From: an uncultured Flavobacteriaceae bacterium
Lineage (GTDB): Bacteria; Bacteroidota; Bacteroidia; Flavobacteriales; Flavobacteriaceae
Assembly: GCA_905181625.1 (NCBI GenBank)
Contig: CAJIYJ010000005.1
Span: forward strand, 1-64,000
Direction of reading: 5' to 3'
Length of the DNA stretch: 64,000 bases
Position numbers and translations under genes: made by a program. Below the pieces are notes generated by a model. It ran no database searches, was not told the DNA's origin, and saw only the letters and a list, made by a program, of their open reading frames with translations. The first letter of the stretch is position 1, and each line of letters begins with the position of its first letter. This document shows, in pieces, positions 22,355 through 45,287 of the stretch.

Positions 22355-23170
22355 CTACTCCGTTTTAAAAGAATAGACAATTGAGTAACTACTATTTACT
22401 CCGTCTGATGTCTTCACTCTCCAGTAATAGGTGGTTGCAGCTTCTAAAGCTACACTGGCTGTCTTAGCAATGTGCCTCCTGGCAAAGTCCAATTAGTCTC
22501 ATTTATCAGGTCGTAACCTCCAATCCATTCATTGTCTTTATATCTATCCGCTATTTTTTCCCATAAAGCAACAATTTTTACTTGATTAGCTTCGCTTTCC
22601 CATAAAGAAGGTTTAGAATCATCATAATCTGAAATATCTGCATTATATCCCTGTCCCCCAGGAGCTGCATGTAAGTCTAAATCACATACATATTATGAGG
22701 TTTAGCCCATTCTAACACATTATCAATAATGGTAAAGCCTTCTTCAATCCACGTTTTCTGACCAGCTACTGGCTCATCTTCAATTGGAAGTGTCATTAAA
22801 TTATAGTGCATTGGAATTCTAATGCTGTTAAAACCCCATGCAGCTAAAGAATCTAAATCCCTTTTAGTAAAATGATTTTTTCTCCATTCTTTAAAAAAGT
22901 TTCTGTCTTTTCAGCACCCATTAATTCAATGAGTTTACTCTTTATTTCATGTTGAGGCCCCGCTAATCCAGCAGACTGATTCATATAACCATCCATAACA
23001 AGCCAACCTCCAGGTCCCATTCCTCTTAACAAAACTTCGTTTCCATTTTTATCAACTATTTTCTTTTCACTTGTTTTAAGACCATGTGAAAAAGAAAAAT
23101 TAATAAATAAAATACTAATTATTATATGAGTTAAGATATAAAGGAATGTTAAAAGTATTTTTTTATTCAT
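22355..23170 (-). pseudogene. Broken GH5 glycoside hydrolase
   Basis: The N-terminal part is open: a signal peptide, then KKIVDKNGNEVLLRGMGPGG and GLAGPQHEIKSKLIELMG. It loses frame near 22890. In the next frame it continues as KRDLDSLAAWGFNSIRIPMH, EDEPVAGQKTWIEEGFTIID and EWAKPHNMYVI. A one-base loss near 22685 then leads to DLHAAPGGQGYNADISDYDD, SKPSLWESEANQVKIVALWE, YKDNEWIGGYDLINETNW. Right after that, most of the catalytic barrel is missing. The frame jumps to EAATTYYWRVKTSDGVNSSY and ends at 22355, a tail like a fibronectin/secretion segment. So the gene carries two frameshifts and an internal deletion that removes the nucleophile region. It is the last member of the PUL operon. Confidence 0.88.
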
Positions 23171-26096: not shown

Positions 26097-26097
26097 T

Positions 26098-27105: not shown

Positions 27106-27111
27106 TTATTT

Positions 27112-28410: not shown

Positions 28411-31400
28411 TAAAAATTATTTTTAATGACAAATACTACAATCTTATTCACTTCGTCAGTTCTTTTAAAAACTTTAGAACTTATTTTATCATTTAGCTTT
28501 TTGCCATTAAATTCAATAGATTTTCCATTATTTAAATAAACTGTGATTTTTGAAGCAGTTGACTTTTGATATATAATTGGGACTTGACAATATGTAAATC
28601 CTAATGAGTTCTTTTCTAGCTTAATTGAGCTACTTTTTTTATCAAGATTTATATAATTAAATATTTGAGTCTTATTTAAAAACTCTTCATTTTTTAAAAT
28701 TTCAGGATTAAAGCAAATTACTCCCTTGTCAATTTGAATGCCTAATTCCCCAAACCTACTTAATAAGTCTTCTTTTACTTGACCTGTCATCCCGGGTTGT
28801 TGTGCCCCCTTTCCTTCTGGAGTGTGCGAATAAGGATCTGTTGGAAAAGCCCCATATAATTCAGGAGATTTTTTAACTCCAATTCCTTCATTAATTTCAA
28901 AATAATGATCAATTAACTTATTAACTATTACTTTATCTTCATTTTGCTGAGAAGCTGATTTGATGACTTCAAATACTGCTAATAAAAGCTTTGAAACCAT
29001 ATGCCAATAAATAGATCCCAAACCTTCATATCCAAAAAACGTTCCTGATCTTCCTGTAAAAGATTTATGATCGAATACTTGCTCAAAAATTTGAAGAATT
29101 TTTGACATCTCATTTTTTAAAAGACTGTTATAATGCTCAGGAAGCATTTTTAAAGCTTTTATTAAACAATTTGCGTTATTGAAATTTCCATTAAAATGGT
29201 ATCCTCCCAATACATCTTTATTAATAATTTGAGAATTACCATCTTCAATTAACTTTTGTAATAAAGTTGACTTTAGAACATTCTCTTTTCCAATGTTATT
29301 TTTGTCGATAAAGCGACCTAAATCTTTATTAGGGTATAAGGTGTAGCTAGATTGATCTTTTCTAAACAATTTACTTTGCTTTAAACTATCCAGCACTTTT
29401 AAACTTTCGCTTGCGGATAGGTATCCTGAGCTTAATATTGCTACTTGACCTTCTAACATTTCTGGCAAACTTGAAATAATTATCTTACCATTTTCTTGTA
29501 GTGACATTAAATTGTAAGCGTGGTATAGGTTGTCCTTTCTTTTATTAGCCAAAATAGAATGATCTAAAAATGCTAAAGAAATTTTAATAAAACTTTTTAA
29601 TTTTTCTATTGATAAATTTTGCTTATCTGATGAGAACCCCTGACTATAAATATTGTTTCTGTAAATACTTCCTGCCTTTCCAAGAAGATCTAATATGACT
29701 TTGCGATCAATATCGGAAATATCTTTTGAGAGAAGGTGTTTATTATCTTGAAATGCCGTGTGAATTTCATTATAAAAATTAAACAATTCTAAAGAGATAC
29801 TGACCTTATCAATTTTGCTTTTATTAAGAGTCTTATCAAAAAAGTTTAAAAACCTTCTTAAATAATAAAGCGTTACCATTGAAACTCCATTTCCTACTAA
29901 CGCATTATTAGCATCATTCCACTCAGGCCGTTGCGTATTCATCCATATACCTCCCTCGGGAATAAAATTTGAAAGTTTTGATAAAACAGTAGCTAAAATC
30001 TTTTCAATAAAATTTATTTTATAAATATTATTGTTAGGATCCTTTAAAAGAGCTCCATCTACTCCATTTTTTTTTCTGTCATCTTGAATTTTCTTTTCGT
30101 TTTCGTGATCAAAATCAATAGTATTTTTAGAATCTACTAAAATCTGCTCATAACTTTTTATTTTATACGGGACATTAGCATAAACAAATACATTTTTCGA
30201 AAAGTAATTTAATAGTCTACTAGGGTAATAATCTTCAATAAATTCTAAAAACTTAAGAAGATAAATAATTTGATGATCTCCCCAATAACCAATATAAGCC
30301 CAAGGATTGTCAGGCTCTACTGTTTCCCAGTCAAAGCCATCTTTAGTAACTCTATAAGGATTGTATCCCTCAAATGTAGTAGCATTCAAAAATTTATGAA
30401 TCATCCCATCAATAAATTCTGGATAAGAATGCGCTAATGATTCCCAATTTTGAAATATATCCCTCCAATTTCCTTGATAATCTAGAATTTTAGATCCATC
30501 TTCTTCACTCTTTGTGTTTATTGAAAATTTATTCCATGGACGACTTGGATCCCCGTGTCTTCTACTAAATTTTAAAGGCAAATATTCAAAGCATAAACGT
30601 TCAAAATCAGTATCATCATTCTTTTCATAAATAAGTTTTAAATCACCTAAAGAAAATAAAATTGGAAGAGAGTTTAATGTTTCTATGTTGTTCTCGTATA
30701 CTTCTTTATTAGCATTTGATATATATGGAATGAAATCAGATTTTTCAATTTGATAGCTATTATCAAATATTCCTCCTCGCATTAAATTAAACATCGAGTT
30801 AGAAAAATGACGAATATTTCTGAGTTTATCTGCTGTAATTTGAATTCCATCACAGGATCCAACTATCTCTATTAAATGTTTTGATCCGGCTTTAATATCA
30901 TTTTCGATATGAGTAGATATACTTGAATTGTTTTTTATAAGTTTTTTTATATAAATTATGTCAGAAACTGTTTGATTTACATTGGCTACTATCATCCAAT
31001 TTTTAGACTTATTGCTTGAAAGGGTTAAGCTTGTATTAAGAAAATAAGCTCCCTTTTCAGCTCTTATATTATTTTCTTGAATTACTTTATCCCCTCTTCT
31101 AAAATTTTCAATTTGTAAAGAAGAAAGTAAATACTTAGGATTTGTTAAGCCATAAGACCATACAGTATTAGCTTTTAAAGCTTCACTAGGCTCAGCCTTA
31201 TCAACTATAATAGCGCTTAAAGAATAAACGCCTAATCCTGTATCGGTTTCAAGTTCACACTTCTTATAAGCATCAACTAGATTACTAGATCTATTTTGCA
31301 GCTCTTCATTAACCCCGCTTGGAACAATATTTTGTATCCCATCTAATAAATCTAACTCAACATCTGATGATCCATTATTTGTTATATTCGATTTTCTAAC

Positions 31401-31877
31401 AAAGCCATGCTTATCACTTGAATTCCATTGATAAGAAAATTTCAATTCTAAATCGTGATTAATTTCTTCAAAAATTATTTTATTCCCTATTGAATTCTTG
31501 TAGAGGTTTCGTGTTATTTTATAGACACTACTAAGTTTTCTAGAAAAAGGCTCCCAAAGAAATTTTTTGCCACTTTTTGAAACAAGCAATAAGGTTTTGC
31601 TACCTGTAACCTCTTCAGATTCCGTAATCTTATCGTCAGTATAATAAGGAAATAAAGCTGAATCACTATTCTTTCTTCCGGCCGACAGACTTCCAGTACT
31701 TGAGATGAACATCCAATGGTTAGAATCACTTACAATACTCATAAAAAAAGGACGCATCGAGTCGACGTTAGAAATTTTATAAAACTCTTCGCTTTGTATT
31801 GTTACCAACTCTCCTTTAACTTCTTGTTTAGATAGATGAGCTTCTGTATTTCCTAAATATATTTTACTATTAGACAT
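28410..31877 (-). CDS. GH149-type beta-1,3-oligoglucan phosphorylase (probable)
   Basis: A protein of 1155 residues with no signal peptide or membrane segment, so cytoplasmic, unlike the other enzymes of the locus. The architecture fits GH94/GH149-type phosphorylases: an N-terminal beta-sandwich (about 1-330; HWMFISSTGSLSAGRKNSDS, FLWEPFSRKLSSVYKI), then an alpha/alpha-barrel-like region (DWETVEPDNPWAYIGYWGDH near residue 520, GGIWMNTQRPEWNDANNALVGNG near 640, TGRSGTFFGYEGLGSIYWHM near 950). The length matches GH149. These enzymes use phosphate to release glucose-1-phosphate from beta-1,3-gluco-oligosaccharides. The family call rests on size, absence of a signal and context, so a search should confirm it. 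Confidence 0.8.
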   Translation of the reverse strand: MSNSKIYLGNTEAHLSKQEVKGELVTIQSEEFYKISNVDSMRPFFMSIVSDSNHWMFISSTGSLSAGRKNSDSALFPYYTDDKITESEEVTGSKTLLLVSKSGKKFLWEPFSRKLSSVYKITRNLYKNSIGNKIIFEEINHDLELKFSYQWNSSDKHGFVRKSNITNNGSSDVELDLLDGIQNIVPSGVNEELQNRSSNLVDAYKKCELETDTGLGVYSLSAIIVDKAEPSEALKANTVWSYGLTNPKYLLSSLQIENFRRGDKVIQENNIRAEKGAYFLNTSLTLSSNKSKNWMIVANVNQTVSDIIYIKKLIKNNSSISTHIENDIKAGSKHLIEIVGSCDGIQITADKLRNIRHFSNSMFNLMRGGIFDNSYQIEKSDFIPYISNANKEVYENNIETLNSLPILFSLGDLKLIYEKNDDTDFERLCFEYLPLKFSRRHGDPSRPWNKFSINTKSEEDGSKILDYQGNWRDIFQNWESLAHSYPEFIDGMIHKFLNATTFEGYNPYRVTKDGFDWETVEPDNPWAYIGYWGDHQIIYLLKFLEFIEDYYPSRLLNYFSKNVFVYANVPYKIKSYEQILVDSKNTIDFDHENEKKIQDDRKKNGVDGALLKDPNNNIYKINFIEKILATVLSKLSNFIPEGGIWMNTQRPEWNDANNALVGNGVSMVTLYYLRRFLNFFDKTLNKSKIDKVSISLELFNFYNEIHTAFQDNKHLLSKDISDIDRKVILDLLGKAGSIYRNNIYSQGFSSDKQNLSIEKLKSFIKISLAFLDHSILANKRKDNLYHAYNLMSLQENGKIIISSLPEMLEGQVAILSSGYLSASESLKVLDSLKQSKLFRKDQSSYTLYPNKDLGRFIDKNNIGKENVLKSTLLQKLIEDGNSQIINKDVLGGYHFNGNFNNANCLIKALKMLPEHYNSLLKNEMSKILQIFEQVFDHKSFTGRSGTFFGYEGLGSIYWHMVSKLLLAVFEVIKSASQQNEDKVIVNKLIDHYFEINEGIGVKKSPELYGAFPTDPYSHTPEGKGAQQPGMTGQVKEDLLSRFGELGIQIDKGVICFNPEILKNEEFLNKTQIFNYINLDKKSSSIKLEKNSLGFTYCQVPIIYQKSTASKITVYLNNGKSIEFNGKKLNDKISSKVFKRTDEVNKIVVFVIKNNF

Positions 31878-31905
31878 TCTAAAATTTTATAAATAACCAA
31901 TTCTT

Positions 31906-33510
31906 CTATTGATAAATCCTTACATATTCGATCTCCATAATATCACTGTCAAAATCAGATGCAATTTCGCCTCCCATAGTTCCTCCCATGGCAACGTTTA
32001 AAATGATAAACTGATTCCAATTAAAAGGAAGAGCACAAGAATTTCCTACTATATGATGTGGCTTGTCATCAACATAAAATGTTAGCGCCTGTTTGGTCCA
32101 AACAAGTGAATAAACATGAAATACTTCCGTAATATCAGAGTAATCATTGCTAATATGAGAATCCCCTCCTCCATAATTATCAGGATGATGTACTGTAGAT
32201 TGAACTTTAAAATTATTTGATTGAGCTGCTTCTAAAATATCTATTTCACCACAAGCAGGCCAAGTGACAGTTTTAAAATTAGAACCTAGTAACCATAAAG
32301 CTGGCCAAGCACCTTTTTTTCCTGGAATTTTCGCTTTTATATCTACTCTTCCATAAGTAAAGTCTTTTTTAGTATTAGATATTATTCTAGCCGAAGTATA
32401 ATTGTTTCCATTATAAGATTCCTTTTTAGCTATAATTTTTAATTTACCATCTTCAACTTTAGAATTATCTAATCTACTTGTGTAAGATTGAACCTCGTTA
32501 TTATACCAACTATCACCAACTTCATGAACCCATTTGTCTGAATCAATAGCACCCGTATAGTCAAATTCATCAGACCAAACTAAACTAGAAAACTGATCCT
32601 TAGGGCTAATACTTGAAACAGTATTAGTAGTAAGCCATACATACCAAGCTATATCCTGGTCATCAACTGTCCTTAAATAGATGTTTTCTGAATCATAGCA
32701 TTCAATAGTATAACTATGTTCTCCTACATAAAAGCCTACAAAGCCTTTATCCCCAAATTCAACTTTATTAAGATTATCTTCTTTTTTTGCAGAAAATGTT
32801 GTTTGATAATTGCTTAGTGGATAATTCTCTATATCACCATCACCATTTGGAGATTGAGAAGTAGAGCCAAAATCATCATTTAGATGATGGCCCTTTCCAA
32901 ATATAGTTTCGTTTGTTTTATGAGAATAAGTTCCGTTTATATTAAAAGTATATTCATCATCATAAAACCCTTTATTTAATTTAGAAAAAGCATAAGCTTC
33001 CCAATACGTCGAGTATCGTTTATCTTGAGTTCCATTAGAAAAATGAGCGTCTTGGGCAGAGTTAATTTTCCAGGTTTTAGAAGAACTACCTGCCAATAGC
33101 TCTAAAAGAGTTTGCTCAGATTCAGGCTTAACATAGACAGTAATTGTTTTATCTATACTAACATAATTGTTAGTTGAAGAATAGGCTAATACCTTAATAT
33201 TATATGTTTTAGTGCCAACTTCTGTATAGGTGAATTCAGCAGATCCAGTACTGGTTTTTGATCTCCCAGTTCCAAATCTAAAACTATAAGAAACAGCATT
33301 AGTTGCTAACGCTGTAAACTTTACAGTCCCCGAACCATCTCCATTTGGATTATTAGAATCTGAACCAACTATATCAAATGACAAGCTTAAGTTTGAAGGA
33401 ATGATTTCTTGTGAATCAACTGGGCCTGATCCCTTATCATCATCTGATCCTGAACTAGAACATGAAATGAAAATATTTAAAATAAAAAATAGTTTTAAAA
33501 ATTTTGTCAA
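31906..33510 (-). CDS. GH16 laminarinase, surface lipoprotein with PKD-like module
   Basis: An endo-beta-1,3-glucanase of 534 residues. The lipobox Cys is near residue 17, followed by SSSGSDDDKG, an acidic stretch like the Bacteroidota surface-export signal. Residues about 38-130 form a PKD-like domain (NPNGDGSGTVKF), and about 135-295 a second beta domain also found in the neighbouring lipoprotein. The GH16 catalytic domain fills about 305-534: SLVWSDEFDY, then GEIDILEAAQ with nucleophile Glu422, Asp424 and acid/base Glu427, and VWTKQALTFYVDD. It would cut laminarin at the cell surface to feed SusC/D. A terminator precedes the gene. Confidence 0.93.
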   Translation of the reverse strand: MTKFLKLFFILNIFISCSSSGSDDDKGSGPVDSQEIIPSNLSLSFDIVGSDSNNPNGDGSGTVKFTALATNAVSYSFRFGTGRSKTSTGSAEFTYTEVGTKTYNIKVLAYSSTNNYVSIDKTITVYVKPESEQTLLELLAGSSSKTWKINSAQDAHFSNGTQDKRYSTYWEAYAFSKLNKGFYDDEYTFNINGTYSHKTNETIFGKGHHLNDDFGSTSQSPNGDGDIENYPLSNYQTTFSAKKEDNLNKVEFGDKGFVGFYVGEHSYTIECYDSENIYLRTVDDQDIAWYVWLTTNTVSSISPKDQFSSLVWSDEFDYTGAIDSDKWVHEVGDSWYNNEVQSYTSRLDNSKVEDGKLKIIAKKESYNGNNYTSARIISNTKKDFTYGRVDIKAKIPGKKGAWPALWLLGSNFKTVTWPACGEIDILEAAQSNNFKVQSTVHHPDNYGGGDSHISNDYSDITEVFHVYSLVWTKQALTFYVDDKPHHIVGNSCALPFNWNQFIILNVAMGGTMGGEIASDFDSDIMEIEYVRIYQ

Positions 33511-33610
33511 TTTGAGAGGTTCTAAGTTGATTGTTTAGTTCAATAAAAGATTTGAGTATTGGTTTAAAATAATATTGCCATTGAAGAAAATACTGTCTAA
33601 CGTAATTTTA

Positions 33611-33646
33611 AAAAAAACTGAAAGGACATACGCCACTTTCAGTTTT
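33611..33646 (-). terminator. Internal PUL terminator between binding protein and GH16 genes
   Basis: On the minus strand AAAACTGAAAG (33636-33646) pairs perfectly with CTTTCAGTTTT (33614-33624) around an 11-nt loop, followed by further T residues. It lies in the 158-bp gap before the GH16 gene. It would lower transcription of the enzyme genes relative to susC/D and the binding proteins. Confidence 0.8.
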
Positions 33647-33668
33647 CTTTAAAAAGAATTAAACAAAA

Positions 33669-34547
33669 TTATTCAACTGCTATTAATTTATAATACCATT
33701 TTCTACCTAAATCATCAGTAGTTGTAAGGTGCATTGTGTTTGAAGTTGGAAAAACAATAGTATAATCGTGAGTTCCAGTATACAAAGCAACGTGACCAAT
33801 TCCAGAAAATGAAATAGTTTCTACTCCACCAGGTGCTGTTACATTCCAAGTTCCTGAATAATCTGCAAGAGGAAAGTTTTTATGTGTATCATCTACAGGC
33901 TCATCAGTACCACCAACATCAGCTGCATATTCAAATTTTACTGCACATCCTCCATTAGTTGTATGAGTATAACCTCTTCCAGTTAAACTAAAAGTCCACG
34001 TATCATCATCAGATCCATAGTCAGTTCTACTGTTTGGACCTGCTGAATACCAAATTGGCTCAGTTGAATCTGCAGGACCAACTCCCACATGTCCTCCTTC
34101 TGAAGTATTTAATTTCCAAATTCTAGATGAATTACTTGTCAGATTAGTCACAAATTCTGGTTGAGGAGAATAGTTTGCAAAAACCTTAACAGAAACAGAC
34201 TTCATTGAAGTAGTTCCTCCAGTTCCAACAGCAACCGCTGTGACAACATAAGTATGTGTGCCTGTAACGCTAAAATTAATTGTATGTTTTCCATATGGAG
34301 CTAATGTTTCCACACCATCAAAAATCAATTTATATGTCAAGGCATTATTAGCGCTCACATTAAAGTGTACTGTTCCGCTTCCGTCTCCATTAGGATAAGC
34401 CTCGTCTACTCCAATTATTTCAGCAGTAATTTGAACATTTGAAGGAGCTATTATAGCCCCAAGCTCGTAGTTTTCTTCCTCACAACTTACTAAAGTGAAA
34501 GTAGCTAAAATGAAAACTGATTTAAATAAAAATTTTAATTTTTTCAT
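33669..34547 (-). CDS. Surface glycan-binding lipoprotein sharing the GH16 N-terminal module
   Basis: 292 residues. The signal ends in VSC (about residue 22) followed by EEENYE, an acidic surface-export-like stretch. A PKD-like domain (about 33-125; YPNGDGSGTVHF, GTHTYVVTAVAV) is followed by a second beta domain (about 130-292; SSRIWKLNTSEGGH, GHVALYTGTHDYTI, LTTTDDLGRKWYYKL). Both domains align block by block with residues 38-295 of the GH16 protein next door, so this looks like that enzyme without its catalytic domain. A role in holding laminarin at the surface (SusE/SGBP position) is inferred from context. Confidence 0.8.
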   Translation of the reverse strand: MKKLKFLFKSVFILATFTLVSCEEENYELGAIIAPSNVQITAEIIGVDEAYPNGDGSGTVHFNVSANNALTYKLIFDGVETLAPYGKHTINFSVTGTHTYVVTAVAVGTGGTTSMKSVSVKVFANYSPQPEFVTNLTSNSSRIWKLNTSEGGHVGVGPADSTEPIWYSAGPNSRTDYGSDDDTWTFSLTGRGYTHTTNGGCAVKFEYAADVGGTDEPVDDTHKNFPLADYSGTWNVTAPGGVETISFSGIGHVALYTGTHDYTIVFPTSNTMHLTTTDDLGRKWYYKLIAVE

Positions 34548-34560
34548 AATTTTTTAATTT

Positions 34561-36480
34561 TAATCTTTTTTATTTTTTAACAAAATATAAATTATCGATA
34601 TAAACAGTACCGTTACCATCCCATACTAATTGCATGAATTTTGAAGCATCATTAGTGTATTCAGATAGTGGGATATCAACACTTACCCAACCACCTTTAG
34701 AAATAGAACTAACCGAAACAAGTGCTTCTTTTTTTCCTTCATCATTATCTGCATAAGCAGTGTTGACTAGCTTTAAACCAAGCTTTGATGAATTTGGCGT
34801 CCAATAATCAAAATGAACGTGGGTTTTAGTAGAAATATCTGTTCCAGGATCGTAATTAGTAACTAAACCTGAATAATTTAAATTAGAATACTTTAAAATA
34901 TTATTCCCGTCAATAGTTACCGTTTCTAGTGTTGTTGATTGACCCCAATCAGGATTCCACTCAGACACATTTTCATCAGTATAACTATCGCTAAAAATTG
35001 AAGTAACGTCAGAAGCAGCAGCTGATGGTGCTGTAGGAGCTACAGTTGGTTTATCTTCATAAAAATATAAATTGTCTATATAAACCGTACCGTTACCATC
35101 CCATACTAATTGCATGAATTTTGAAGCATCATTAGTGTATTCAGATAGTGGGATATCAACACTTACCCAACCACCTTTAGAAATAGAACTAACCGAAACA
35201 AGTGCTTCTTTTTTTCCTTCATCATTATCTGCATAAGCAGTGTTGACTAGCTTTAAACCAAGCTTTGATGAATTTGGCGTCCAATAATCAAAATGAACGT
35301 GGGTTTTAGTAGAAATATCTGTTCCAGGATCGTAATTAGTAACTAAACCTGAATAATTTAAATTAGAATACTTTAAAATATTATTCCCGTCAATAGTTAC
35401 CGTTTCTAGTGTTGTTGATTGACCCCAATCAGGATTCCACTCAGACACATTTTCATCAGTATAACTATCGCTAAAAATTGAAGTAACGTCAGAAGCAGCA
35501 ACAGATGGTGCTGTAGGAGCTACAGTTGGTTTGTTTTCATAGAAATATAAATTATCGATATAAACCGTACCATCACCATCCCATACTAATTGCATGAATT
35601 TTGAAGCATCATTAGTATAATCAGAAAGTGAAATATCTACACTCACCCAACCACCCTTAACTATTGCAGGTGCTAAAACAAGCGCTTCTTTTTTTCCTTC
35701 ATCATTATCTGCATAAGCGGTGTTGACTAGCTTTAAACCAAGTTTTGTAGCATCCTTAGTCCAATAATCAAAATGAACATAGTTCATAGAACTGATATCT
35801 GTACCAGGATCGTAATTAGTAACTAAACCTGAATAATTTAAATTAGAATACTTTAAAATATTATTCCCGTCAATAGTTACCGTTTCTAGTGTTGTTGATT
35901 GACCCCAGTCAGGATTCCACTCAGACACGTTTACATCAGTATAACTATCGCTATAAATAGAAATAACGTCATCTGAAGCAACCGAAGGTGCTGCAGCAGC
36001 AGCAGTAGGAGCATCTGATGGTAAGTTATAGAAATATAGATTATCTATCCAAATTTTTGAGGCACTACCATCCCAAACTAACTGCATGAACTTAGCAGTG
36101 TCATTTGTGTAGTCAGAAAGTGGAATATCTACACTTACCCACTCCCCTTTTGTAATAGCATCAACAGAAACAAGCGCTTCTTTTTTAGGATCTCCATCAC
36201 CATAAGCTGTATTAACTAATTTTAAGCCTAGCTTGGTTGCGTCTACTGTCCAATAATCAAAATGAACATAAGTTTTACCTGTAAGAGCTGTGCCAGGATC
36301 GTAGTTAGTTACCAAACCTGAATAATTTAAGTTTTGATATAAAAGAGTTTCATTACCCTCAATTTTGACAGTTTCTAATGTTGTTGATTGACCCCAATTA
36401 GGATTCCACTCAGACACATTTACATTAGTATACTGGTTACTAAAAATTGAAACTACATTGTCTGGATGAGCAAGTGGTTT
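34561..36480. repeat. Four in-frame tandem DNA repeats, two identical over 414 bp
   Basis: Repeats start about every 480 bp (160 codons; 492 bp between the two left-most protein copies because of an Ala-rich linker). Bases 34607-35020 and 35087-35500 are identical throughout. The copy at 35521-36000 is partly diverged, and that at 36001-36480 more so. The pattern fits stepwise duplication from the 3' end of the gene or recent gene conversion. Confidence 0.9.
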
Positions 36481-37587
36481 AGGAGCTGCTGTTAAAGGTT
36501 CTGTAACTTTTGCATCTTGTGAAAAATCATCAACATAAAAAGTCCAGTCATCACCACCTTCACCCATAGTTCCTAAATCAAAGAACCAAACTATTTTTCT
36601 ATATTCTTTAGATGAATCAATAGCACTCATATCAAAAATAACCTCTTCCCAACCTTTATTTCCAGATAAAGTTGCTGAAATTTCTCCGCTGTTTACAGCG
36701 GCATCATCGATGTTTTCTAGTTTCATCGTCATAGTTCCTCCGGCTCTAGGAGACCAAACCTTAACTTTAATTTGATTTTTTATAGATAAATCTTTTATTG
36801 GATTAGTAGTTGTAATGACATTTCCTGCCCAAGTTTCTCCAGCTCCTTTAACAACTTTTCCAACTTTAGCTGATGAATTTCCAGATGAATCAGGATTGTC
36901 GATAACACTATTACTTGTTCCTCCAAAACTTATAAAAACATTCGTGTCAAAACTCTCAAAGTCTACAGGCAATAAGGTTTCTGTAAACATAGTTACCGTT
37001 TCTGTTTTTTCAGTTGTAGCAGAGCCACCACTAAAAGCAATAACTTTTACATCATAATCACCTCCAGTTGGATAAGTGTAATTTACCGATCCATCAACAG
37101 CTAACTCAACAGGATCTTCTCCTTCTATTCCAAAGTATACGTGAAAATAAGTTGCAAAATCAGCTTTAGCTGAAACCGTAAGAGTTAATGCTTCAGGAGC
37201 TAATGTTAAAGTTAAGTTTTCAGGTGCCTTGAAAGAAACTGTTAAAGGTGCATTAGCAGATGTTTTTAAACCATTAAGTCCATTTGCTGTTATATTAACT
37301 TCAAATGAACCTTCCGCATAAGTATGACTAACACTTGAGCCAGGTTTAATATCACTAACTGCATCTGACGAGCTGTCTCCAAAAGAAGAAATATCAAAAC
37401 TAACAGCCCCTTCTGCTTCAGGTGTAATAGTTACTAAACCTGTATTATCTTGAGTAATTACAAAATTAGCCGTAACGTTTGAAGGAGCTTCGATTCCAAA
37501 ATCAATTTCCTCCAAAAAATCATCTTGACAACCAATAAAGGCAGTGATCAAAAAGAAAAATGTGAATATTTTATTTATTTTTTTCAT
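34570..37587 (-). CDS. Multidomain glycan-binding surface lipoprotein with four tandem repeats
   Basis: 1005 residues. The lipobox is in AFIGC (Cys20), followed by QDDFLEEIDFG, an acidic surface-export-like stretch. Two PKD-like domains (about 34-118 and 119-206) are followed by a CBM-like beta-sandwich (about 207-360) and then four copies of a ~160-residue domain (about 369-529, 529-689, 689-849, 849-1005). Each copy has SEWNPDWGQSTTLETV, YSGLVTNYDPGTDIS, VHFDYW, LGLKLVNTAYADND and VYIDNLYFY, resembling carbohydrate-binding beta-sandwiches. It has no catalytic domain. The place after susD suggests the SusE/F role. The last two copies are nearly identical at DNA level. Confidence 0.85.
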   Translation of the reverse strand: MKKINKIFTFFFLITAFIGCQDDFLEEIDFGIEAPSNVTANFVITQDNTGLVTITPEAEGAVSFDISSFGDSSSDAVSDIKPGSSVSHTYAEGSFEVNITANGLNGLKTSANAPLTVSFKAPENLTLTLAPEALTLTVSAKADFATYFHVYFGIEGEDPVELAVDGSVNYTYPTGGDYDVKVIAFSGGSATTEKTETVTMFTETLLPVDFESFDTNVFISFGGTSNSVIDNPDSSGNSSAKVGKVVKGAGETWAGNVITTTNPIKDLSIKNQIKVKVWSPRAGGTMTMKLENIDDAAVNSGEISATLSGNKGWEEVIFDMSAIDSSKEYRKIVWFFDLGTMGEGGDDWTFYVDDFSQDAKVTEPLTAAPKPLAHPDNVVSIFSNQYTNVNVSEWNPNWGQSTTLETVKIEGNETLLYQNLNYSGLVTNYDPGTALTGKTYVHFDYWTVDATKLGLKLVNTAYGDGDPKKEALVSVDAITKGEWVSVDIPLSDYTNDTAKFMQLVWDGSASKIWIDNLYFYNLPSDAPTAAAAAPSVASDDVISIYSDSYTDVNVSEWNPDWGQSTTLETVTIDGNNILKYSNLNYSGLVTNYDPGTDISSMNYVHFDYWTKDATKLGLKLVNTAYADNDEGKKEALVLAPAIVKGGWVSVDISLSDYTNDASKFMQLVWDGDGTVYIDNLYFYENKPTVAPTAPSVAASDVTSIFSDSYTDENVSEWNPDWGQSTTLETVTIDGNNILKYSNLNYSGLVTNYDPGTDISTKTHVHFDYWTPNSSKLGLKLVNTAYADNDEGKKEALVSVSSISKGGWVSVDIPLSEYTNDASKFMQLVWDGNGTVYIDNLYFYEDKPTVAPTAPSAAASDVTSIFSDSYTDENVSEWNPDWGQSTTLETVTIDGNNILKYSNLNYSGLVTNYDPGTDISTKTHVHFDYWTPNSSKLGLKLVNTAYADNDEGKKEALVSVSSISKGGWVSVDIPLSEYTNDASKFMQLVWDGNGTVYIDNLYFVKK

Positions 37588-37605
37588 ATTTATTATGTAT
37601 AAGTA

Positions 37606-39072
37606 TTAGTATCCTGAATTTTGAGTTAATCCAGAAATATCAATTTCGGTTTGAGGAATTGGAAACACTTCGTGTTTACCAGCTACAAAACCTGAAATTT
37701 TAGTTGCAGCTTCACCAGTTCTAACTAAATCAAAAAATCTGTGACCTTCCATAGCTAGCTCTAATCTTCTTTCTTCCCAAATTTCACTAGTTAAAGCAGT
37801 CCCTGTAGAAGAAGAAGCTTTTGAATCATCTCCAAATGCTCTAGCTCTAACTTGATTTAAATAATTTTGAGCTTTTGTATCATCTGCAGCAGATTTTCTG
37901 TTATTAGCTTCAGCAGCCATTAATAGAACATCAGCATACCTAATAGCTCTATAATTGTTTTCATAATTCAATTCTTGTTGAGCAGCACTTGAGCCAGCTC
38001 TAGGAATATATTTATGATTATAATAACCTGTGTGTTCATACGCAGATGTATATTCTGCTCCAGTATCAGCTGCCCAAGCAACTATATCTAGTACAGCAGT
38101 CTTTTTTCTTTTATCGTCATTTAAATAAGCGTCAAAAAGATCTTTGGAAGGCAAGTTAAAACTCCATCCTGAAGCATAAACTGTTCCGTTATATCCTCTA
38201 ATTCCATGGTGAATAATTCCAAAGCTTCCTTCAGATCCTTGAGGGAAACCCCAGTCCCACCAGTTAGAGTTTTTTGAATGTTGTACCTCAAATACAGCCT
38301 CAGGTCCATTTTCTCCAGAGGTTAAAAACACATCTTGAGGATTAGCTGGAAGTGTATATAGCCCAATCAAAGGTTCCAAAATATTAGCTGTCTCATCAAA
38401 TTTATTTTGGTATAAGTAAACTTTTCCAAGTAAAGCATGAGCAGTAAACGAAGTTGCTCTACCATCTGTACTCTTGGCAGCAGGAAGTGAAGCTATTGCA
38501 GATTTTAAATCTTTCTCAATTTGAGCATAAACTTCTGCTTTAGGAGATCTAGATAAAGTTGCAGAATCTCCAGCAGTTAATCTTGATGTAGTAAACAAAG
38601 GAACATCACCAAAAATTTTAACTAGTTCAAAATAAAAGTAAGCTCTTAAAAACTCTACCTCTCCATAAAGCTCAGCTTTTCTAGAAAATTGTATTTTATC
38701 TTTATTTTCAACTAAATAATTAGCTCTGTTAATACCTTCATACATCCATTTCCAAGTTGAAGTTAATTGGTCGTTAACTGGATCATGAATCATATCATCT
38801 ATTTTTTGAAGTCCAACTACATCAGTAGCACTTTCTCCTCCGCACAATGAGTTGTCAGAAGCAATATCTCCAATCATTATACTGTAGATATTCCATTGAA
38901 GAACATCATAAGTTCCAACTAAAGCCGCTTCAAAGTCAGCAGAAGTTTTAAAGTAATCATCTGCAACAATCGTATATGCTTCAGATGCTTCATAGTCAAC
39001 GTAATCTTCACAGCTAAAAAAGCCTAATGAAAGAATGACTATTAAAATGTTATTAAAAATTTTATTTTTCAT
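37606..39072 (-). CDS. susD: SusD-family glycan-binding outer-membrane lipoprotein
   Basis: 488 residues. The signal ends at FFSC near residue 21, followed by EDYVDYEASEAYTI. The SusD N-terminal TPR-like region shows DDYFKTSADFEAALVGTYD, YEGINRANYLVEN and FLRAYFYFELVKIFGDVPL (near residue 145). The C-terminal block RYADVLLMAAEANNRK...LNQVRARA and EERRLELAMEGHRFFDLVR is the standard RagB/SusD ending. It caps the SusC transporter and delivers oligosaccharides. It lies 11 bases after susC, as in almost all PULs. Confidence 0.97.
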   Translation of the reverse strand: MKNKIFNNILIVILSLGFFSCEDYVDYEASEAYTIVADDYFKTSADFEAALVGTYDVLQWNIYSIMIGDIASDNSLCGGESATDVVGLQKIDDMIHDPVNDQLTSTWKWMYEGINRANYLVENKDKIQFSRKAELYGEVEFLRAYFYFELVKIFGDVPLFTTSRLTAGDSATLSRSPKAEVYAQIEKDLKSAIASLPAAKSTDGRATSFTAHALLGKVYLYQNKFDETANILEPLIGLYTLPANPQDVFLTSGENGPEAVFEVQHSKNSNWWDWGFPQGSEGSFGIIHHGIRGYNGTVYASGWSFNLPSKDLFDAYLNDDKRKKTAVLDIVAWAADTGAEYTSAYEHTGYYNHKYIPRAGSSAAQQELNYENNYRAIRYADVLLMAAEANNRKSAADDTKAQNYLNQVRARAFGDDSKASSSTGTALTSEIWEERRLELAMEGHRFFDLVRTGEAATKISGFVAGKHEVFPIPQTEIDISGLTQNSGY

Positions 39073-39083
39073 GTGATATATTT

Positions 39084-42000
39084 TTAAAATTTAAGATTTA
39101 AGCCAAGTGATATAATTCTTGGAGAAGGATATGTTCCTCTGTCCACACCCGTGTCAAGTACTGGACTTCCACCGTTAGAAATTTCAGGATCATAACCTGT
39201 GTAATCAGTGAATGTAAAAGCATTTTTAGCAAGAGCATAAACTCTTAAGCTACTAAGGCCTAGCTTAGATGCAGTGGCTTCAGAAAAATTATAACCTAAC
39301 TGAATGTTTTTGATTTTAACAAAACTACCATCTTCAACATATCTGTCAGAAGCTCTACTGTTATTGTTAGCATCTATAAAAGAATATCTAGGCTCAGTAG
39401 TGCTTGTGCCTTCACCTGTCCATCTATTTAGAACAGATGCAAATTTGTTAGTGTAGTTTAACCCTCTTTCATATCCTCTAAAAATATCATTTCCAACTGA
39501 TGCGTATGTAAATACAGATAAGTCAAAATCTGAAACAGTTAATGCGAAGTTCCATCCTAAAGTAAAGTCTGGAAATGGATCTCCAATTTTAGTTCTATCC
39601 TCAGCGTCAATTTTACCATTTCCATCAACATCAACAAATCTGATATCTCCAGGCTGTGCATTGTTTTGAGTAGCATGCGCATCAATATCAGCTTGATTTT
39701 GGAAGATGCCATTAGTTTTATAACCCCAGAATATACCAGGCGATTCACCTTGTCTAAATTGAGTTAAGCTAGTAAAAGGAATTCCATAACCACTTCCCCA
39801 AATATATTTGTCTCCATTATTAATTTCCTTAACTAAGTTTTCTGCAGCTGTAAAATTAAATGTAGTATTGAAACTTACATTTTTAGCGATTTCATCACCA
39901 TATGATAAACTAAGTTCATATCCTTTTGTTTCAGTCTTTCCAATATTAGCAACTGGATAACTTGGGATGCCTAAGTAAAGAGATAAGGTAGGACTAAATA
40001 ATAAGTCATCAACTGTTTTAATAAAGTAATCAGCTGTAAATTTTAATTTAGAATCAAACATTCTTAAATCAGCTCCAATATTTGTCTGAGTTTGATTTTC
40101 CCATGAAACATCATTATTAGGAATTCCTAATAAAGTAGAACCTGAATAAATAGTTTCTCCAAAAGTGTATTTTGGAAAAGTTGAAATAGTTCCGAATTGA
40201 GGAGATGCATTATCATTACCTACAGTTCCATAACTAGCTCTAAATTTTAAAAAGTTAATAGCTGAAGAGTTGAAAAAATCTTCATTTGATGCTACCCATC
40301 CAATTGATGCAGAAGGGAAAACAGCAAACTTATTATTCTTTCCAAAACTAGTTGAACCATCTCTTCTAACAGTTACAGAAGCTAAGTATTTTTCTTGAAA
40401 ATCATATTCAACTCTTCCCATTAAAGAAACACTTCTATTAACACTTTGCCAAGATCCAGTACTTTGATCTTCCATTCCACCAGCAGCAGAACTTAAATCC
40501 GCATAAGTCCAAGAATTAAAAGGAACATCAACATTACTTCCGCTAAGCATATTGTTAGTGCCTTTTCCAATAGTAAATCCAGCAAAAACATTAAAATTAT
40601 GCTCGTCGTTTAAACTAAAATCATAATTACCAAAAAGTTCATATGAATAATTAAACCAATTTTGTTTAGTTTCAGATACTCTATTGTGATCATCCTCAGT
40701 TCTTGGAGATAAATCAGCATTAGCATTAGTTCTATTATGTCCAACTCCATAGAATTGAAGTGGAGTAAAGCCTTTAGATTGTTGCCATACACTTGAATAA
40801 CCTAATCTAGAAGTGATTTTGAAATTATCCATTAATTGATATTGTAATTCTATTTTACCAATTAATTTATCAGTTTTATTATCACTGTAGGAGTTAGAAA
40901 CTCCAGCTAAAGGATTAATAATTTCTTGAGTAATTGTACTACTCATTCCATACGCACCATCAACCATGGTTGAAACCGTAGGGTCAAAGTTTAATGCATT
41001 CCCAATTTGATTCCCACCAAGACCATTGCCTTGAATGTTAGAATATTTAGTATGGATGATAGCTTTTAAATTATCCGATAACTCAGATGTAAAGTTTGCC
41101 GTAAAATTTGCAGTATCAAAAAAGTCTTTTTCAGTACCAAATGCAACTCCTTCTTGTGCAGTATATCCAGCTGAAAGATAGTAAGTTGACTTACTGTCAC
41201 CCCCCGAAGCAGAAAAATTTGTTGTAGAAATTGGTGCTGCACTAAATAATTCCTTTTGCCAATTAGTCCCTACACCCAATCCTGAAAGATTAGAGAAAAT
41301 AATTGAACCTCCAGATGATACACTACCCTCATTAAGAATAGCCGCATATTGTGACGCATTTAAAACATCTATATATTTATCAACTTCTTGCATTCCGAAT
41401 GATGTGTCTAAAGAAAAAATCGTTTCTTGATTTTTCTTTCCAGATTTAGTAGTAATAACTATAACACCATTACCACCTCTTACACCATAAAGAGCAGTTG
41501 TAGAAGCGTCCTTTAATACAGAAACACTTTCGATATTAGCAGGATTAATAGCATCCATATCATATAACGAAGAATTGATACCATCAATAACTACTAAAGG
41601 ATCAGTTCCAGAAAAAGAAGTTATTCCTCTAATTAAAACAGAAGGCTTACCTCCAGGTGATCCACTAGAAATAACATTAAGACCTGCCTGCCCTTGTAAA
41701 GCATCTTCTATTCTAAGTGGCTTTAGTTTTTCAACATCTTCAGCAGAAACAGTTGAAACTGCTCCAGAAATATTAGAAGCTTTTTGAGTACTGTAACCTA
41801 CAAGAATTACTTCGTCTAAAGATTCTACATCTTCATCAAGAGAAACACTTAGGTTGAATGAACTACCGACTGTAACATCTTTAGTTAAATAACCAATGTA
41901 AGAAAATTGAATAACGTCTCCGACAGAAACTCCTATTAGACTAAAATTTCCATTAAAGTCAGTCGTAGTACCATTTTGAGTACCGCTAATTACAACGCTT

Positions 42001-42119
42001 ACACCTGGTAAAGGACCATCATTAGATGAATCCGATACAGATCCATTCAAAGTAGCATCTTGAGCTACGATTAAAAAAGATCCAAATAAGATAAGTAAGG
42101 ATAAAAATTTTGTTTTCAT
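39084..42119 (-). CDS. susC: SusC-family TonB-dependent outer-membrane transporter
   Basis: 1011 residues. A signal peptide (about 1-19) is followed by a CarboxypepD-regulatory-like domain (about 24-100; GPLPGVSVVISGTQNGTTTD), then the plug with LDEVILVGYSTQKASNISGAVS and LQGQAGLNV, then the 22-strand barrel ending in IISLGLNLKF. The DEVVVVGY-like TonB box is present. It imports gluco-oligosaccharides using TonB energy. It is the first gene of the operon, with a 239-bp upstream gap holding a promoter and an inverted repeat. Confidence 0.97.
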   Translation of the reverse strand: MKTKFLSLLILFGSFLIVAQDATLNGSVSDSSNDGPLPGVSVVISGTQNGTTTDFNGNFSLIGVSVGDVIQFSYIGYLTKDVTVGSSFNLSVSLDEDVESLDEVILVGYSTQKASNISGAVSTVSAEDVEKLKPLRIEDALQGQAGLNVISSGSPGGKPSVLIRGITSFSGTDPLVVIDGINSSLYDMDAINPANIESVSVLKDASTTALYGVRGGNGVIVITTKSGKKNQETIFSLDTSFGMQEVDKYIDVLNASQYAAILNEGSVSSGGSIIFSNLSGLGVGTNWQKELFSAAPISTTNFSASGGDSKSTYYLSAGYTAQEGVAFGTEKDFFDTANFTANFTSELSDNLKAIIHTKYSNIQGNGLGGNQIGNALNFDPTVSTMVDGAYGMSSTITQEIINPLAGVSNSYSDNKTDKLIGKIELQYQLMDNFKITSRLGYSSVWQQSKGFTPLQFYGVGHNRTNANADLSPRTEDDHNRVSETKQNWFNYSYELFGNYDFSLNDEHNFNVFAGFTIGKGTNNMLSGSNVDVPFNSWTYADLSSAAGGMEDQSTGSWQSVNRSVSLMGRVEYDFQEKYLASVTVRRDGSTSFGKNNKFAVFPSASIGWVASNEDFFNSSAINFLKFRASYGTVGNDNASPQFGTISTFPKYTFGETIYSGSTLLGIPNNDVSWENQTQTNIGADLRMFDSKLKFTADYFIKTVDDLLFSPTLSLYLGIPSYPVANIGKTETKGYELSLSYGDEIAKNVSFNTTFNFTAAENLVKEINNGDKYIWGSGYGIPFTSLTQFRQGESPGIFWGYKTNGIFQNQADIDAHATQNNAQPGDIRFVDVDGNGKIDAEDRTKIGDPFPDFTLGWNFALTVSDFDLSVFTYASVGNDIFRGYERGLNYTNKFASVLNRWTGEGTSTTEPRYSFIDANNNSRASDRYVEDGSFVKIKNIQLGYNFSEATASKLGLSSLRVYALAKNAFTFTDYTGYDPEISNGGSPVLDTGVDRGTYPSPRIISLGLNLKF

Positions 42120-42160
42120 AAATTGATTTTTGTTAGAAAACTAAACTTAAAAGAAATAAA

Positions 42161-42190
42161 CTGTATAGCAAACATAAATAACCTATACAG
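42161..42190. promoter_or_regulatory. Inverted repeat around the susC -7 box (candidate operator)
   Basis: CTGTATAG (42161-42168) and CTATACAG (42183-42190) are exact reverse complements with a 14-nt spacer. Inside the spacer, on the minus strand, is TATGTTTG (42169-42176), an exact TAnnTTTG -7 box, giving a leader of about 43 nt before susC. No -33 TTG is at normal distance, as expected for an activator-dependent promoter. Half-sites TGTATAGGT recur at 42317-42325 and 45242-45250, near the regulator gene. Confidence 0.55.
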
Positions 42191-42358
42191 AATTATTGAA
42201 AATAATGCAAAGAGCAATAAATATTGCTAATAACATAGATTACTAGGTTAATTTTTTATGAATTTATTAATAAATAGAAATCAAAAATAGGAAATAAAAA
42301 AGCGAAAATATGTAAATGTATAGGTAATGTAAGGTTGTTTTTGAGTAAATATTATTCA

Positions 42359-45172
42359 TCATAAGCTCAACAAATGATCTGTAAGTCCCTCATTATGGGA
42401 TAGATTCATCTTTTTTCTAAGCCTATAGCGCTTAATTTCCACACTACTTAAAGAGATATTAAGTAAAGGTGAAATATCTTTTGAAGAAAGATTTAATCTA
42501 AGATAAGCACAAAGTCGTAAGTCATTATTTGTAAGCGTGGGATGCATTTGTTTAACTTTTTTCAGGAAATCTTTATCAGCATTATTAAAGGCTTCTTCAA
42601 AAAATTTCCAATCATCTTTATTGTTTAAATTTCTATCGATCATTTTAATTACAGAAAATATCTTCTCGCTAGAATCAATTAATTTTAGATCAGATTTTAT
42701 CTTACTTAAGAATTGGTTCTTCTTTATCATGCTCATTGTTGAAATAGCCAGTTCTCTATTCTTTCCTTCAATGTCATCTTGTAGTTTATTGTTTTCAATA
42801 GACATAAGAGCCTGCTTTTTTTCAATCTCTTTTAACTCGAGTTTGTTTTGATTTATTTTAATTATTTTTTCTTCTTTAAGCCTGTAGTAATTATGAGAAG
42901 CCTTATTAATAAGAAAAATACTAATCAATAGAATCAGTACATAATTAGTGATCATAAAATTCGATAAATACCATGGGGGCAGAATAGAAAATTTAAAAAT
43001 TTTTTCATCCGATGATACAACCTCTCCAAAGTATGCTCTGACTTTGAACTCATAATCATTGGGCTTTAAATTATTAAAAGAAACTACTGAATCCTCAGTA
43101 AGGGGACTCCATTGATCTAAATATCCCTCTAAATAATATTCATACTTTATTATTTGAAATTTATCATAATTCCTGGTATTAAAACTAATCTTTACATTAT
43201 TATAATTATAATCTAATTCAGCTCTATTAAATAAGTTTAGTGCAACTGTATTGTTATTAATCTCACTAGCTTCGACTTTTTCAATTATTATATCTGGAGT
43301 AACTTGAGAATAAGTTTCTAAATTAAAATCTATATATCCGTTGTTAGTCCCTATTATATAGTGCTTATCTTTTGTTATTGATATATTCTCAAATACAGTT
43401 TTTCTTAATTTTTCTGGAAATAAAACAGATTTAATTTTTCTTTCGTTTGAAATAAAGTCTTTAGCCATATAATGCATATAGCTTTTTGAAAACATCCACA
43501 GTTTTTTACTTTCATCATTAATTATGATCCCATTTATCAATTCCTTTGAGGATAAATTGGAAAGGAAGATGTCTTTTTCAAAATTGTCAATCTCAGAATT
43601 ATATTTATAAAATCCTTTTTCATAATTATAATAAATTTCTCCGTCAAACTTAGCTAAGCTTACATTTCCTCCTATAGCAACGGACGTATCTATTTTAACA
43701 TTAATTAAATCCTGAAAATTTTTAGAAAAAGAAAGACTGTAAACTCCTTTATAGCCATGACTTACAATCACTTTATTATTATTAGTAATTTCAAAAAGTC
43801 TTGAAGATGTATTGAAGCCTTTTATTTTATTTCGAACCTTCCACTTGCTATTAGTTTTTTCTAAAATTTTAAAACCATAATAACTACCCTCTAAAATTAA
43901 ATTAGATTCATCAGGGATTGCTCTAAAAGCCCAGCTTCCTGCAGTTTTACTAATTTTCAATGCCTTACCCTTATAAACCTGAAACGCCCCTTCATTATGC
44001 CCACAAAACAACTGATCATTTATTACAGATAAACTCCAAACTTGACCAGACGTGTTCTCTATTATTTTAAAAGGGTCAGTAGAATTATATTTTTTATAAA
44101 ACAGCCCTTGATTAGTTCCAATATAAAGAAAGTCATTATAGTGTTTAGAAGCATAAACAGTGCCTAAGACTCCGCCGTAATCATTAAAAATCTGAAACGG
44201 AGATTTACTGTTTATTACAGAAATCCCATTATCCAGTCCTAACCATATATTAGAATTAAGATCTTCAAAAACTGATAAAACAGTATTATTTCCGATCCCT
44301 CTTGATTTATCAATAGTATTTAAATAAGATCCTTTGTCATTTAGTAAAATAACTCCCTGACCAACTGTGCCTATTGCGAAGCCATTGTCTTTTAATCTAA
44401 TGGCGCTATAAACAATATTTCCTTCATTTAAAATATTAGAAGTAATATTCCAAGGCAACAATACTCCATTGGGATATAATTCAAAAGATTCTAATTCATC
44501 AGTAATTAAAAGAAGGTTTTTATTATTCTTAAACATACTAACGATCTGATGAGAATTATTACTATCAATTAACCTAGGGTCACTTGACAAGAGGACTTTA
44601 TCACCATTTTGAAAAATATACAGTCCAGATTTTGAAGTAAAATAGAGTCTTGAATCAACAATAAAAGAATTAGATATTTCTTCATTAGGATCAAAAAATT
44701 CCATTTTTTCTGAAACCTTATTAAACATTATTAATCTTGACAATGATTGAAAAATAATCCAATCATCATAATCTAAGACATCCCAAAACTCCTCATCAGT
44801 ATCAATAATTAATTTTGATTTTTCAACCAAAGAAGTATAGACGTATGAGCCTTTATTTGTTTTTTCCCAATATCCAAAATCCTGATATGATCCAGTGTAA
44901 ACTCGATTGTCTATGAATTTTGTCGAACGGATAATAGAACCATTTTTGGAAAAGAACATGTTCCATCTAGAACCATTAAAGGTTAGAAGACCTGAACTAT
45001 TGGCAATAAAGATTTCTCTATCCTTAGACTGGGTAATCATCCAGTTTTGGTTAGCTCCGTTATAATCTTTAGGCAAATAAGATTGTATAGGTGGCAACAA
45101 CTGGGACTGCATGCTAAATGAAAGCAGACTGAATAATAAAAAATGTTTTAAATATCTCTGATAATCAAGCAC
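42359..45172 (-). CDS. Membrane-bound beta-propeller sensor with LuxR-type HTH
   Basis: 937 residues. A signal/anchor segment (about 8-23) is followed by a long periplasmic beta-propeller-like region (about 25-650), a Y_Y_Y-type beta-sandwich (about 690-755; YYLEGYLDQWSPL, LKPNDYEFKVRAYF), one membrane helix (about 775-795), a coiled coil (about 800-865; LKEIEKKQALMSIENNKLQD) and a C-terminal LuxR-like HTH (about 874-937; MHPTLTNNDLRLCAYLRLNL, SSVEIKRYRLRKKM). There is no kinase or receiver domain, so signal and DNA binding are in one chain, distinct from hybrid two-component PUL regulators. The start is GTG 45172. Control of the downstream PUL is inferred from position. Confidence 0.88.
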   Translation of the reverse strand: MLDYQRYLKHFLLFSLLSFSMQSQLLPPIQSYLPKDYNGANQNWMITQSKDREIFIANSSGLLTFNGSRWNMFFSKNGSIIRSTKFIDNRVYTGSYQDFGYWEKTNKGSYVYTSLVEKSKLIIDTDEEFWDVLDYDDWIIFQSLSRLIMFNKVSEKMEFFDPNEEISNSFIVDSRLYFTSKSGLYIFQNGDKVLLSSDPRLIDSNNSHQIVSMFKNNKNLLLITDELESFELYPNGVLLPWNITSNILNEGNIVYSAIRLKDNGFAIGTVGQGVILLNDKGSYLNTIDKSRGIGNNTVLSVFEDLNSNIWLGLDNGISVINSKSPFQIFNDYGGVLGTVYASKHYNDFLYIGTNQGLFYKKYNSTDPFKIIENTSGQVWSLSVINDQLFCGHNEGAFQVYKGKALKISKTAGSWAFRAIPDESNLILEGSYYGFKILEKTNSKWKVRNKIKGFNTSSRLFEITNNNKVIVSHGYKGVYSLSFSKNFQDLINVKIDTSVAIGGNVSLAKFDGEIYYNYEKGFYKYNSEIDNFEKDIFLSNLSSKELINGIIINDESKKLWMFSKSYMHYMAKDFISNERKIKSVLFPEKLRKTVFENISITKDKHYIIGTNNGYIDFNLETYSQVTPDIIIEKVEASEINNNTVALNLFNRAELDYNYNNVKISFNTRNYDKFQIIKYEYYLEGYLDQWSPLTEDSVVSFNNLKPNDYEFKVRAYFGEVVSSDEKIFKFSILPPWYLSNFMITNYVLILLISIFLINKASHNYYRLKEEKIIKINQNKLELKEIEKKQALMSIENNKLQDDIEGKNRELAISTMSMIKKNQFLSKIKSDLKLIDSSEKIFSVIKMIDRNLNNKDDWKFFEEAFNNADKDFLKKVKQMHPTLTNNDLRLCAYLRLNLSSKDISPLLNISLSSVEIKRYRLRKKMNLSHNEGLTDHLLSL

Positions 45173-45200: not shown

Positions 45201-45231
45201 CAAACTTATAATAAATTAAATTAATCAAATA
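45201..45231 (-). promoter_or_regulatory. Promoter of the PUL regulator
   Basis: On the minus strand a -33-like TTTG (about 45228-45231) lies about 17-19 nt upstream of an exact -7 box TAAGTTTG (45201-45208), 28 nt before the GTG start. A TGTATAGGT half-site (45242-45250) lies just upstream, at a position usual for an activator. Confidence 0.5.
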
Positions 45232-45287
45232 AAAACAGATATGTATAGGTTCATATTAGCACAGTAATGAATATAAAAAAGCAGTAA

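Follow-up and report, generated by a model that had tools for sequence, protein, structure and literature searches.

Paired inverted operators at helically phased distances before susC in laminarin-type PULs of Flavobacteriaceae: candidate sites for DNA looping by the PUL's own regulator

In the accessible text on SusR-like regulators (PMC3878776), these proteins are called unique and poorly studied, SusR of Bacteroides is an activator, and the sites predicted for SusR/BT3705 and relatives are direct repeats on one face of the helix, with 67 or 77 bp between centers. For lac loops in E. coli, the available part of PMC8501960 reports the best lengths as near 133 and 144 bp, with about 11 bp per turn in vivo. 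A 2026 paper on a laminarin PUL (PMC13188888) gives LuxR as the first gene of many such clusters, and the words promoter and operator are absent from its main text as available. In the open-access PMC literature, no PUL was found to be linked with DNA looping, SusR and looping were found together in an imaging review only (PMC4346097), and no entry evidently describes the operator that we present below.

We compared these systems with a locus on the minus strand of a 64,000-nucleotide stretch of DNA from an uncultured Flavobacteriaceae bacterium (the window). The operon downstream of the regulator gene is a β-1,3-glucan (laminarin-type) PUL, in which GH149 is a β-1,3-glucan phosphorylase. The genes are arranged as follows.

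42359..45172, minus strand: regulator, with a Y_Y_Y sensor part, a long predicted helix and a C-terminal LuxR/NarL-type HTH
39084..42119, minus strand: susC, first gene of the controlled operon
23170..39072, minus strand: remaining PUL (susD, two undefined proteins, GH16, GH149, GH17, GH2-like, GH30, MFS transporter)

Inside the PUL, a 158-bp gap before the GH16 gene (33511-33668) carries on the minus strand what looks by eye like a terminator hairpin, ACTGAAAG...CTTTCAGT, with a T-run, and may split the operon.

A Pfam search of the regulator (E up to 0.001) found Y_Y_Y alone, at residues 668-730, and neither the histidine kinase nor the receiver domain of a hybrid two-component system (HTCS). 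The predicted structure of the C-terminal 210 residues has a long helix (7-103) and, further on, an HTH with its recognition helix at 181-194; the long helix probably spans the membrane and continues as a coiled coil, the membrane part being read from the sequence. The solved folds closest to the HTH model are of the LuxR/NarL type (NarL-DNA 1je8, VraR and LiaR), with every match at E >0.001, including that to 1je8 (rmsd 1.4 over 59 columns). A GerE hit (E up to 1) was obtained with each of 32 orthologs, the best at E 2.3e-7, and the regulator in the window scores 20.2 bits, under the Pfam cut-off of 23.5. In NCBIfam, the model for the BT3442 family comes nearest (E 5e-7), at 28.8 bits where the cut-off is 940. 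As predicted here, the protein would be like the SusR-like regulators of Bacteroides, so far as the accessible text describes them, in being a membrane protein with a periplasmic sensor and a cytoplasmic DNA-binding part that controls a PUL. It probably shares with LuxR/NarL response regulators the HTH fold and the place of the recognition helix (at the match values just given), but its HTH is joined to a large sensor and to a helix predicted to lie in the membrane, and no receiver domain was found.

Searches for the regulator gave orthologs in 13 of the 22 genomes of the genus at E up to 1e-30, and in 216 of the 397 genomes of the family at E up to 1e-180. The next gene after the regulator is susC-like in 76 of 100 loci of a first set, and in 118 of 160 overall. 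One genus genome (L014, L017 and L015) has the regulator gene in three matched pieces with one internal stop; the distal operator described below and TGTAAAGGTTATTTAT persist downstream, and the proximal score is slightly under threshold.

A sequence-only reading of the window had proposed that the regulator binds an inverted repeat around the susC -7 box and matching half-sites nearby, and suggested a motif search before orthologous susC/regulator pairs as a check. Our search applied expectation maximization (EM) to 75 regions reaching from the regulator stop codon to susC, from 60 random starting windows, and was not seeded with that repeat. Besides shifted copies of the first, the two best motifs were ACCtATACAttACCacaACAt and TGTATaTTTTTTGTtG.GgT, with scores of 932.6 and 842.2; the maximum in four shuffled sets was 119.5 (30 starts each, fewer than in the real run). 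An 11-bp direct repeat makes up the first motif (its halves correlate at 0.89 for a shift of 11, and at no more than 0.27 for shifts of 8, 9, 10 and 12), and the second, when reverse-complemented, matches the first (correlation of 0.90 at offset 10 and 0.67 at -1). Each promoter therefore has two mutually inverted operators. Both are 11-bp direct repeats of ACCnnnACA, the distal one soon after the regulator stop codon and the proximal one, inverted, just upstream of the susC promoter. The half-sites are thus conserved beside regulator orthologs, and comparison of loci shows up to four of them per promoter, as well as their orientation. In the window, the region is laid out as follows.

42316..42336, minus strand: distal operator AACCTTACATTACCTATACAT, starting 22 nt past the regulator stop codon (EM motif and family scan)
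42328-42336 and 42317-42325, minus strand: distal half-sites AACCTTACA and ACCTATACA, forming an 11-bp direct repeat
42190..42315, minus strand: AT-rich spacer between the operators, whose length across species varies mainly in steps of about 11 bp
42169..42189, minus strand: proximal operator TGTATAGGTTATTTATGTTTG, in the opposite orientation to the distal one, with the strong half-site TGTATAGGT at 42181-42189 and a degenerate second half
42161..42168, minus strand: right arm of the inverted repeat of the sequence-only reading, a possible degenerate extra half-site (genus promoter comparison)
42142..42149, minus strand: susC promoter, probable -7 box TAAGTTTA (putative function)

Among 12 genus promoters, the conserved columns are TGTA.AGGTTATTTATgTTT and TAagTTTA, where capitals mark 11 or 12 of 12. 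The proximal operator in this genus consists of one good and one poor half-site and lies one turn nearer the promoter. Scoring with matrices trained on 77 first-set loci located both operators, within 80-200 bp of each other, in 140 of 159 loci of the first two sets, representing 132 genomes. In the other 19 loci, an operator is missing or the distance lies outside this range; among them are L004, L005 and L015 of the window's genus, with proximal-site scores of 3.8-8.0.

Long-spaced repeats on one helix face are also predicted for SusR-like regulators in the accessible text. However, the operators here are themselves 11-bp tandems, are inverted rather than direct, are mostly 113-151 bp apart (136 of the 140 loci), and vary in distance by steps of about 11.2 bp over many species; this layout departs from the motif predicted for the SusR-like sites. 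The two designs would appear to be related in spirit, with different layouts, as far as that text allows the comparison.

The distance between operators, measured from start to start, is 147 bp in the window. Among the first 77 loci, distances cluster near 114, 125, 136 and 147. We wrote down a prediction of the spacing beforehand, and then scored 60 further loci with frozen matrices and a preset period of 11.1. Both operators scored above 99% of shuffles in 53 of these 60 unseen loci, and the Rayleigh R at that period was 0.64, including outliers at 174 and 244. When this set was limited to 80-200 bp (n = 52), none of 20000 smoothed nulls (sd 4, 6 or 8) reached the observed value. We drew a third set from another collection, leaving out sequences used before; 25 of its 29 loci contain both operators, R is 0.80, and one distance, 132, is off phase.

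In the pooled 140 loci, the distances (with numbers of loci) are 92 (1), 113-116 (11), 121-128 (50), 134-140 (43), 145-151 (32), 159 (2) and 174 (1). No distance falls at 117-120, 129-133 or 141-144, and 174 is the one off-phase case. The cluster means are 114, 125.5, 136.4 and 147.9, or about 11.2 bp per step, and the best-fitting period is 11.4. Nominal p-values are too small, because the species are related; after thinning to 66 regulators with less than 60% identity, R was 0.69, and none of 5000 nulls reached it. A borderline off-phase pair at 131 (L218) has a sequence identical to that of L095.

Close relatives (at least 70% identity, 41 pairs) differ in distance by 0-3 bp in 34 pairs and by 4 in two; the remaining five comprise one pair with a difference of 14 and four with a difference of 10 or 11. 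In four sets of close relatives with differences of 10-14 nt, the larger step is mostly one block in the spacer (L112/L113, 114 versus 125; L054/L059, 115 versus 126; L075/L096, 126 versus 116; L108/L139, 113 versus 127). We also considered whether a register that jumps along the 11-bp tandem might produce the phasing. The distal operator starts 19-25 nt past the stop codon in 120 of the 140 loci (in the 148-bp cluster, 13 of 32 loci have it at 10, 34, 42 or 44), and the promoter box described below begins at +50 in 97 of 140; these stable positions make register jumping unlikely, and it was rejected.

The two elements of a looping pair, namely two operators and dependence on helical phase, are thus found here, purely by comparison of loci. 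As with lac, two operators of what is probably one protein prefer spacings of about 11 bp per turn, to judge by the available part of PMC8501960. The present case differs in that a LuxR-type membrane-anchored sensor, direct-repeat operators and probably activation are involved, and in that the evidence is comparative.

We consider it quite likely that both operators are bound, on one face of the DNA, by the SusR-like, LuxR-type regulator, which probably loops the DNA and activates the β-glucan PUL. The regulator would be a one-component sensor composed of a periplasmic sensor, one membrane helix, a coiled coil and a LuxR/NarL-type HTH, and the two HTHs of one dimer would occupy each 11-bp tandem operator. 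Because both operators must lie on the same helix face, two bound dimers most likely touch, so that the DNA between them would be looped at the membrane. With its ligand, probably a β-glucan oligosaccharide, the complex would recruit or activate RNA polymerase at the -7 box, and an additional site before the regulator gene would provide autoregulation. That SusR is an activator favors activation here as well.

An alternative that we judge unlikely retains the need for one helix face and dispenses with a closed loop of dimers: one dimer might act at a distance, by way of RNA polymerase or of a protein that bends DNA, or a higher-order cluster at the membrane might wrap the DNA. Phasing alone does not demonstrate a protein bridge, and the operator regions, at about 76% A+T, could be bent. 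However, the same type of half-site stands at both ends, inverted and at lac-loop lengths, which points to one protein at both ends.

A strict two-operator pattern matched 105 places in 87 of 397 genomes, and its reversed control gave none among the matches listed. The 55 places that adjoin a regulator among those listed have R 0.77. Another 32 lie away from any listed regulator in genomes that have one listed (R 0.51), and 18 are in genomes without a listed regulator position (R 0.26-0.30, not significant), although a regulator does lie next to at least two of them (L238 and L254). Distances of 120, 132, 133 (three times) and 142 occur among the 50 strict pairs not beside a listed regulator, and such pairs are less tightly phased than the regulator-adjacent ones. 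We examined the genes around 12 of these 50 places (L231, L232, L233, L235, L252, L264, L271-L273 and L278-L280), and at all 12 tblastn matched one or more proteins from the PUL in the window, most often the GH2-like protein, the MFS transporter or that encoded at 34570-37587; some of these matches are weak (L278 has just a partial GH16, E 2e-7). A single-operator pattern was rejected as a specific genome-wide marker, because its reversed control matches often. In the window's own genome, a search for a second operator pair with a relaxed genus proximal signature gave, at zero mismatches, the known site alone and, with up to two mismatches, 10 and 8 matches, below the control's 14 and 15.

Sequence covariation was assessed in 132 loci with both operators and readable helix residues, after 12 off-pattern regulators were dropped. 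The recognition-helix residues flanking V-E track the half-site core. With R,V regulators (78 loci), the core is mostly TAT or ACA; with K,T (6), ACG, TAG or TCG appears in nearly all strong half-sites; and with K,M (4), it is TCT or CCT. The second distal half-site has ACT in 8 of 12 loci with K,V, versus 5 of 78 with R,V. S,I regulators (9, from the window's genus) have TAT in 15 of 18 distal half-sites, cores are mixed for R,I (21), and K,I is represented by two loci only. Mutual information was above all 500 shuffles, which ignore kinship, in 15 of 18 residue-by-position comparisons, and below that level in the other three. One genome (G193) has two paralogs with different helices and different distal operators: R,V with ACCTATACA/ACCACAACA (L074), and K,T with ACCACGACA/ACCACTACA (L150, proximal site under threshold). 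A paralog group with helix K,T and ACGACA-type half-sites (L109, L118, L119, L131, L164 and L170) offers a ready test case for a recognition code. Beside a regulator paralog with 30% identity (L016), TGTAGAGGT lies about 50 nt past the matched part and before a glycosidase-like gene, which suggests that this type of half-site may reach other regulators.

Half-sites also precede the regulator's own gene. The relevant features in the window are these.

45242..45250, minus strand: half-site ACCTATACA, upstream of the regulator's own promoter-like boxes
45226-45229 and 45201-45208, minus strand: promoter-like boxes TTTG and TAAGTTTG of the regulator

The autoregulation proposed in the sequence-only reading is supported by comparison of these upstream regions. 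CTATACA occurs 75-95 nt upstream of the regulator start in 10 of 10 genus orthologs checked, and 157 loci hold 105 forward half-sites (at least one in 65 loci) versus 12.3 in shuffles, and 38 reverse ones versus 15.9. Where a -7-like box was found, half-site distances are mostly 35, 46 and 57, that is, steps of 11. A full operator is present in only 36 of the 157 loci.

These data bear on the idea that the motif belongs to another transcription factor and that the regulator is merely a neighbor. The genomes are related, which inflates co-occurrence, and binding by the regulator is something that we infer. Yet all 87 genomes with a strict pair carry the regulator (related genomes all counted), changes in its helix residues go along with changes in the half-site core, and its gene is preceded by half-sites; we regard the neighbor explanation as very unlikely. 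As had been proposed, the half-sites probably serve the PUL's own regulator as operators.

The inverted repeat CTGTATAGCAAACATAAATAACCTATACAG (CTGTATAG-N14-CTATACAG, 42161-42190) exists as described. It is present once in the window (0 in 100 shuffles), and its exact 8-bp arms, with spacers of 10-18 allowed, still occur once in the 1.86-Mb genome. The 9-mer TGTATAGGT has six copies in the window versus 0.39 expected from shuffles (33223, 42181 on the minus strand, 42317, 45084, 45242 and 59137), three of which are the copies that had been pointed out. Genome-wide there are 23 (17 forward and 6 reverse), and the reversed control has 24. The 9-mer itself is thus common and is not enriched across the genome, and only its clustering at this locus is unusual. 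The copy at 33223 was rejected as an internal promoter site, because it sits within the GH16 coding sequence, which has a TTG start followed by a lipoprotein-like signal, as judged by eye. Another, at 59137-59145, lies in the short intergenic stretch that separates ruvB from a mechanosensitive-channel gene, and may be a chance occurrence at the genome-wide rate.

A symmetric dimer that sits on this palindrome over the -7 box and acts as a repressor would account for the exact arms and their uniqueness in the genome, and the ACA at the end of the right arm is retained in 10 of 12 genus promoters. However, the right arm is exact in one of the 12, that of this genome, and is absent from both family motifs; the half-sites at 42317-42325 and 42181-42189 fall within the operators, and 42161-42168 lies outside; and the conserved -7 candidate is elsewhere. 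We consider a palindromic operator highly improbable, and rejected it. The inverted repeat is real but is the wrong unit: its left arm and the other half-sites are parts of a larger conserved design, in which an 11-bp direct repeat occurs two times, the copies being inverted to each other. The retained ACA end possibly marks a weak extra half-site at the right arm.

The box bracketed by the repeat, TATGTTTG (42169-42176), does fit a -7 box by its letters. However, TAnnTTTA stands at the distance of TAAGTTTA in 11 of 12 genus promoters, and is shifted by one in the twelfth. The family box TAatTTTA begins 50 nt after the proximal operator start in the 97 loci mentioned above (40 nt in the genus); the run that found it was seeded with the box and gave position 48, to which two free leading columns were added. 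In unseeded runs, three motifs around the operator end ranked above this box. Since the TAAGTTTA-type box is conserved at a fixed distance, TATGTTTG is more likely the -33 region; we infer that TAAGTTTA is the susC -7 box, and that the TTTG named in the sequence-only reading is part of the -33 region. Operators upstream of the -7 box are commoner for activators. The proposed overlap with the -7 box, and with it repression, is not supported, because the operator lies upstream of the conserved -7 candidate, which is about 20 bp further downstream. Lastly, the inverted operators might form an RNA stem (attenuator) in read-through regulator transcripts, in which ACC/GGT and ACA/TGT ends could pair, but the commonest cores are noncomplementary by their letters (R,V: distal TAT or ACA versus proximal TCA, ACT or CCA) and phasing by helical turns is meaningless for RNA, so that we ruled out this explanation as having almost no chance of being correct.

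On balance, we lean toward a family-wide form of the looping reading, in which membrane-anchored PUL regulators loop the promoter between two inverted tandem operators, and selection keeps integral turns in more than 100 species. DNA binding and promoter action of membrane-bound SusR-like sensors are poorly known, and the present locus supplies a concrete candidate operator, a candidate code by which the HTH helix would recognize it, and, for laminarin-type PULs, the sharp and testable rule of whole helical turns. Such PULs are important in the turnover of carbon in the sea. If the looping reading is true, the spacing record would be a natural measure of in vivo DNA twist in Bacteroidota (about 11.2 bp per turn), and would provide, through evolution, a view of how DNA is looped in living cells.
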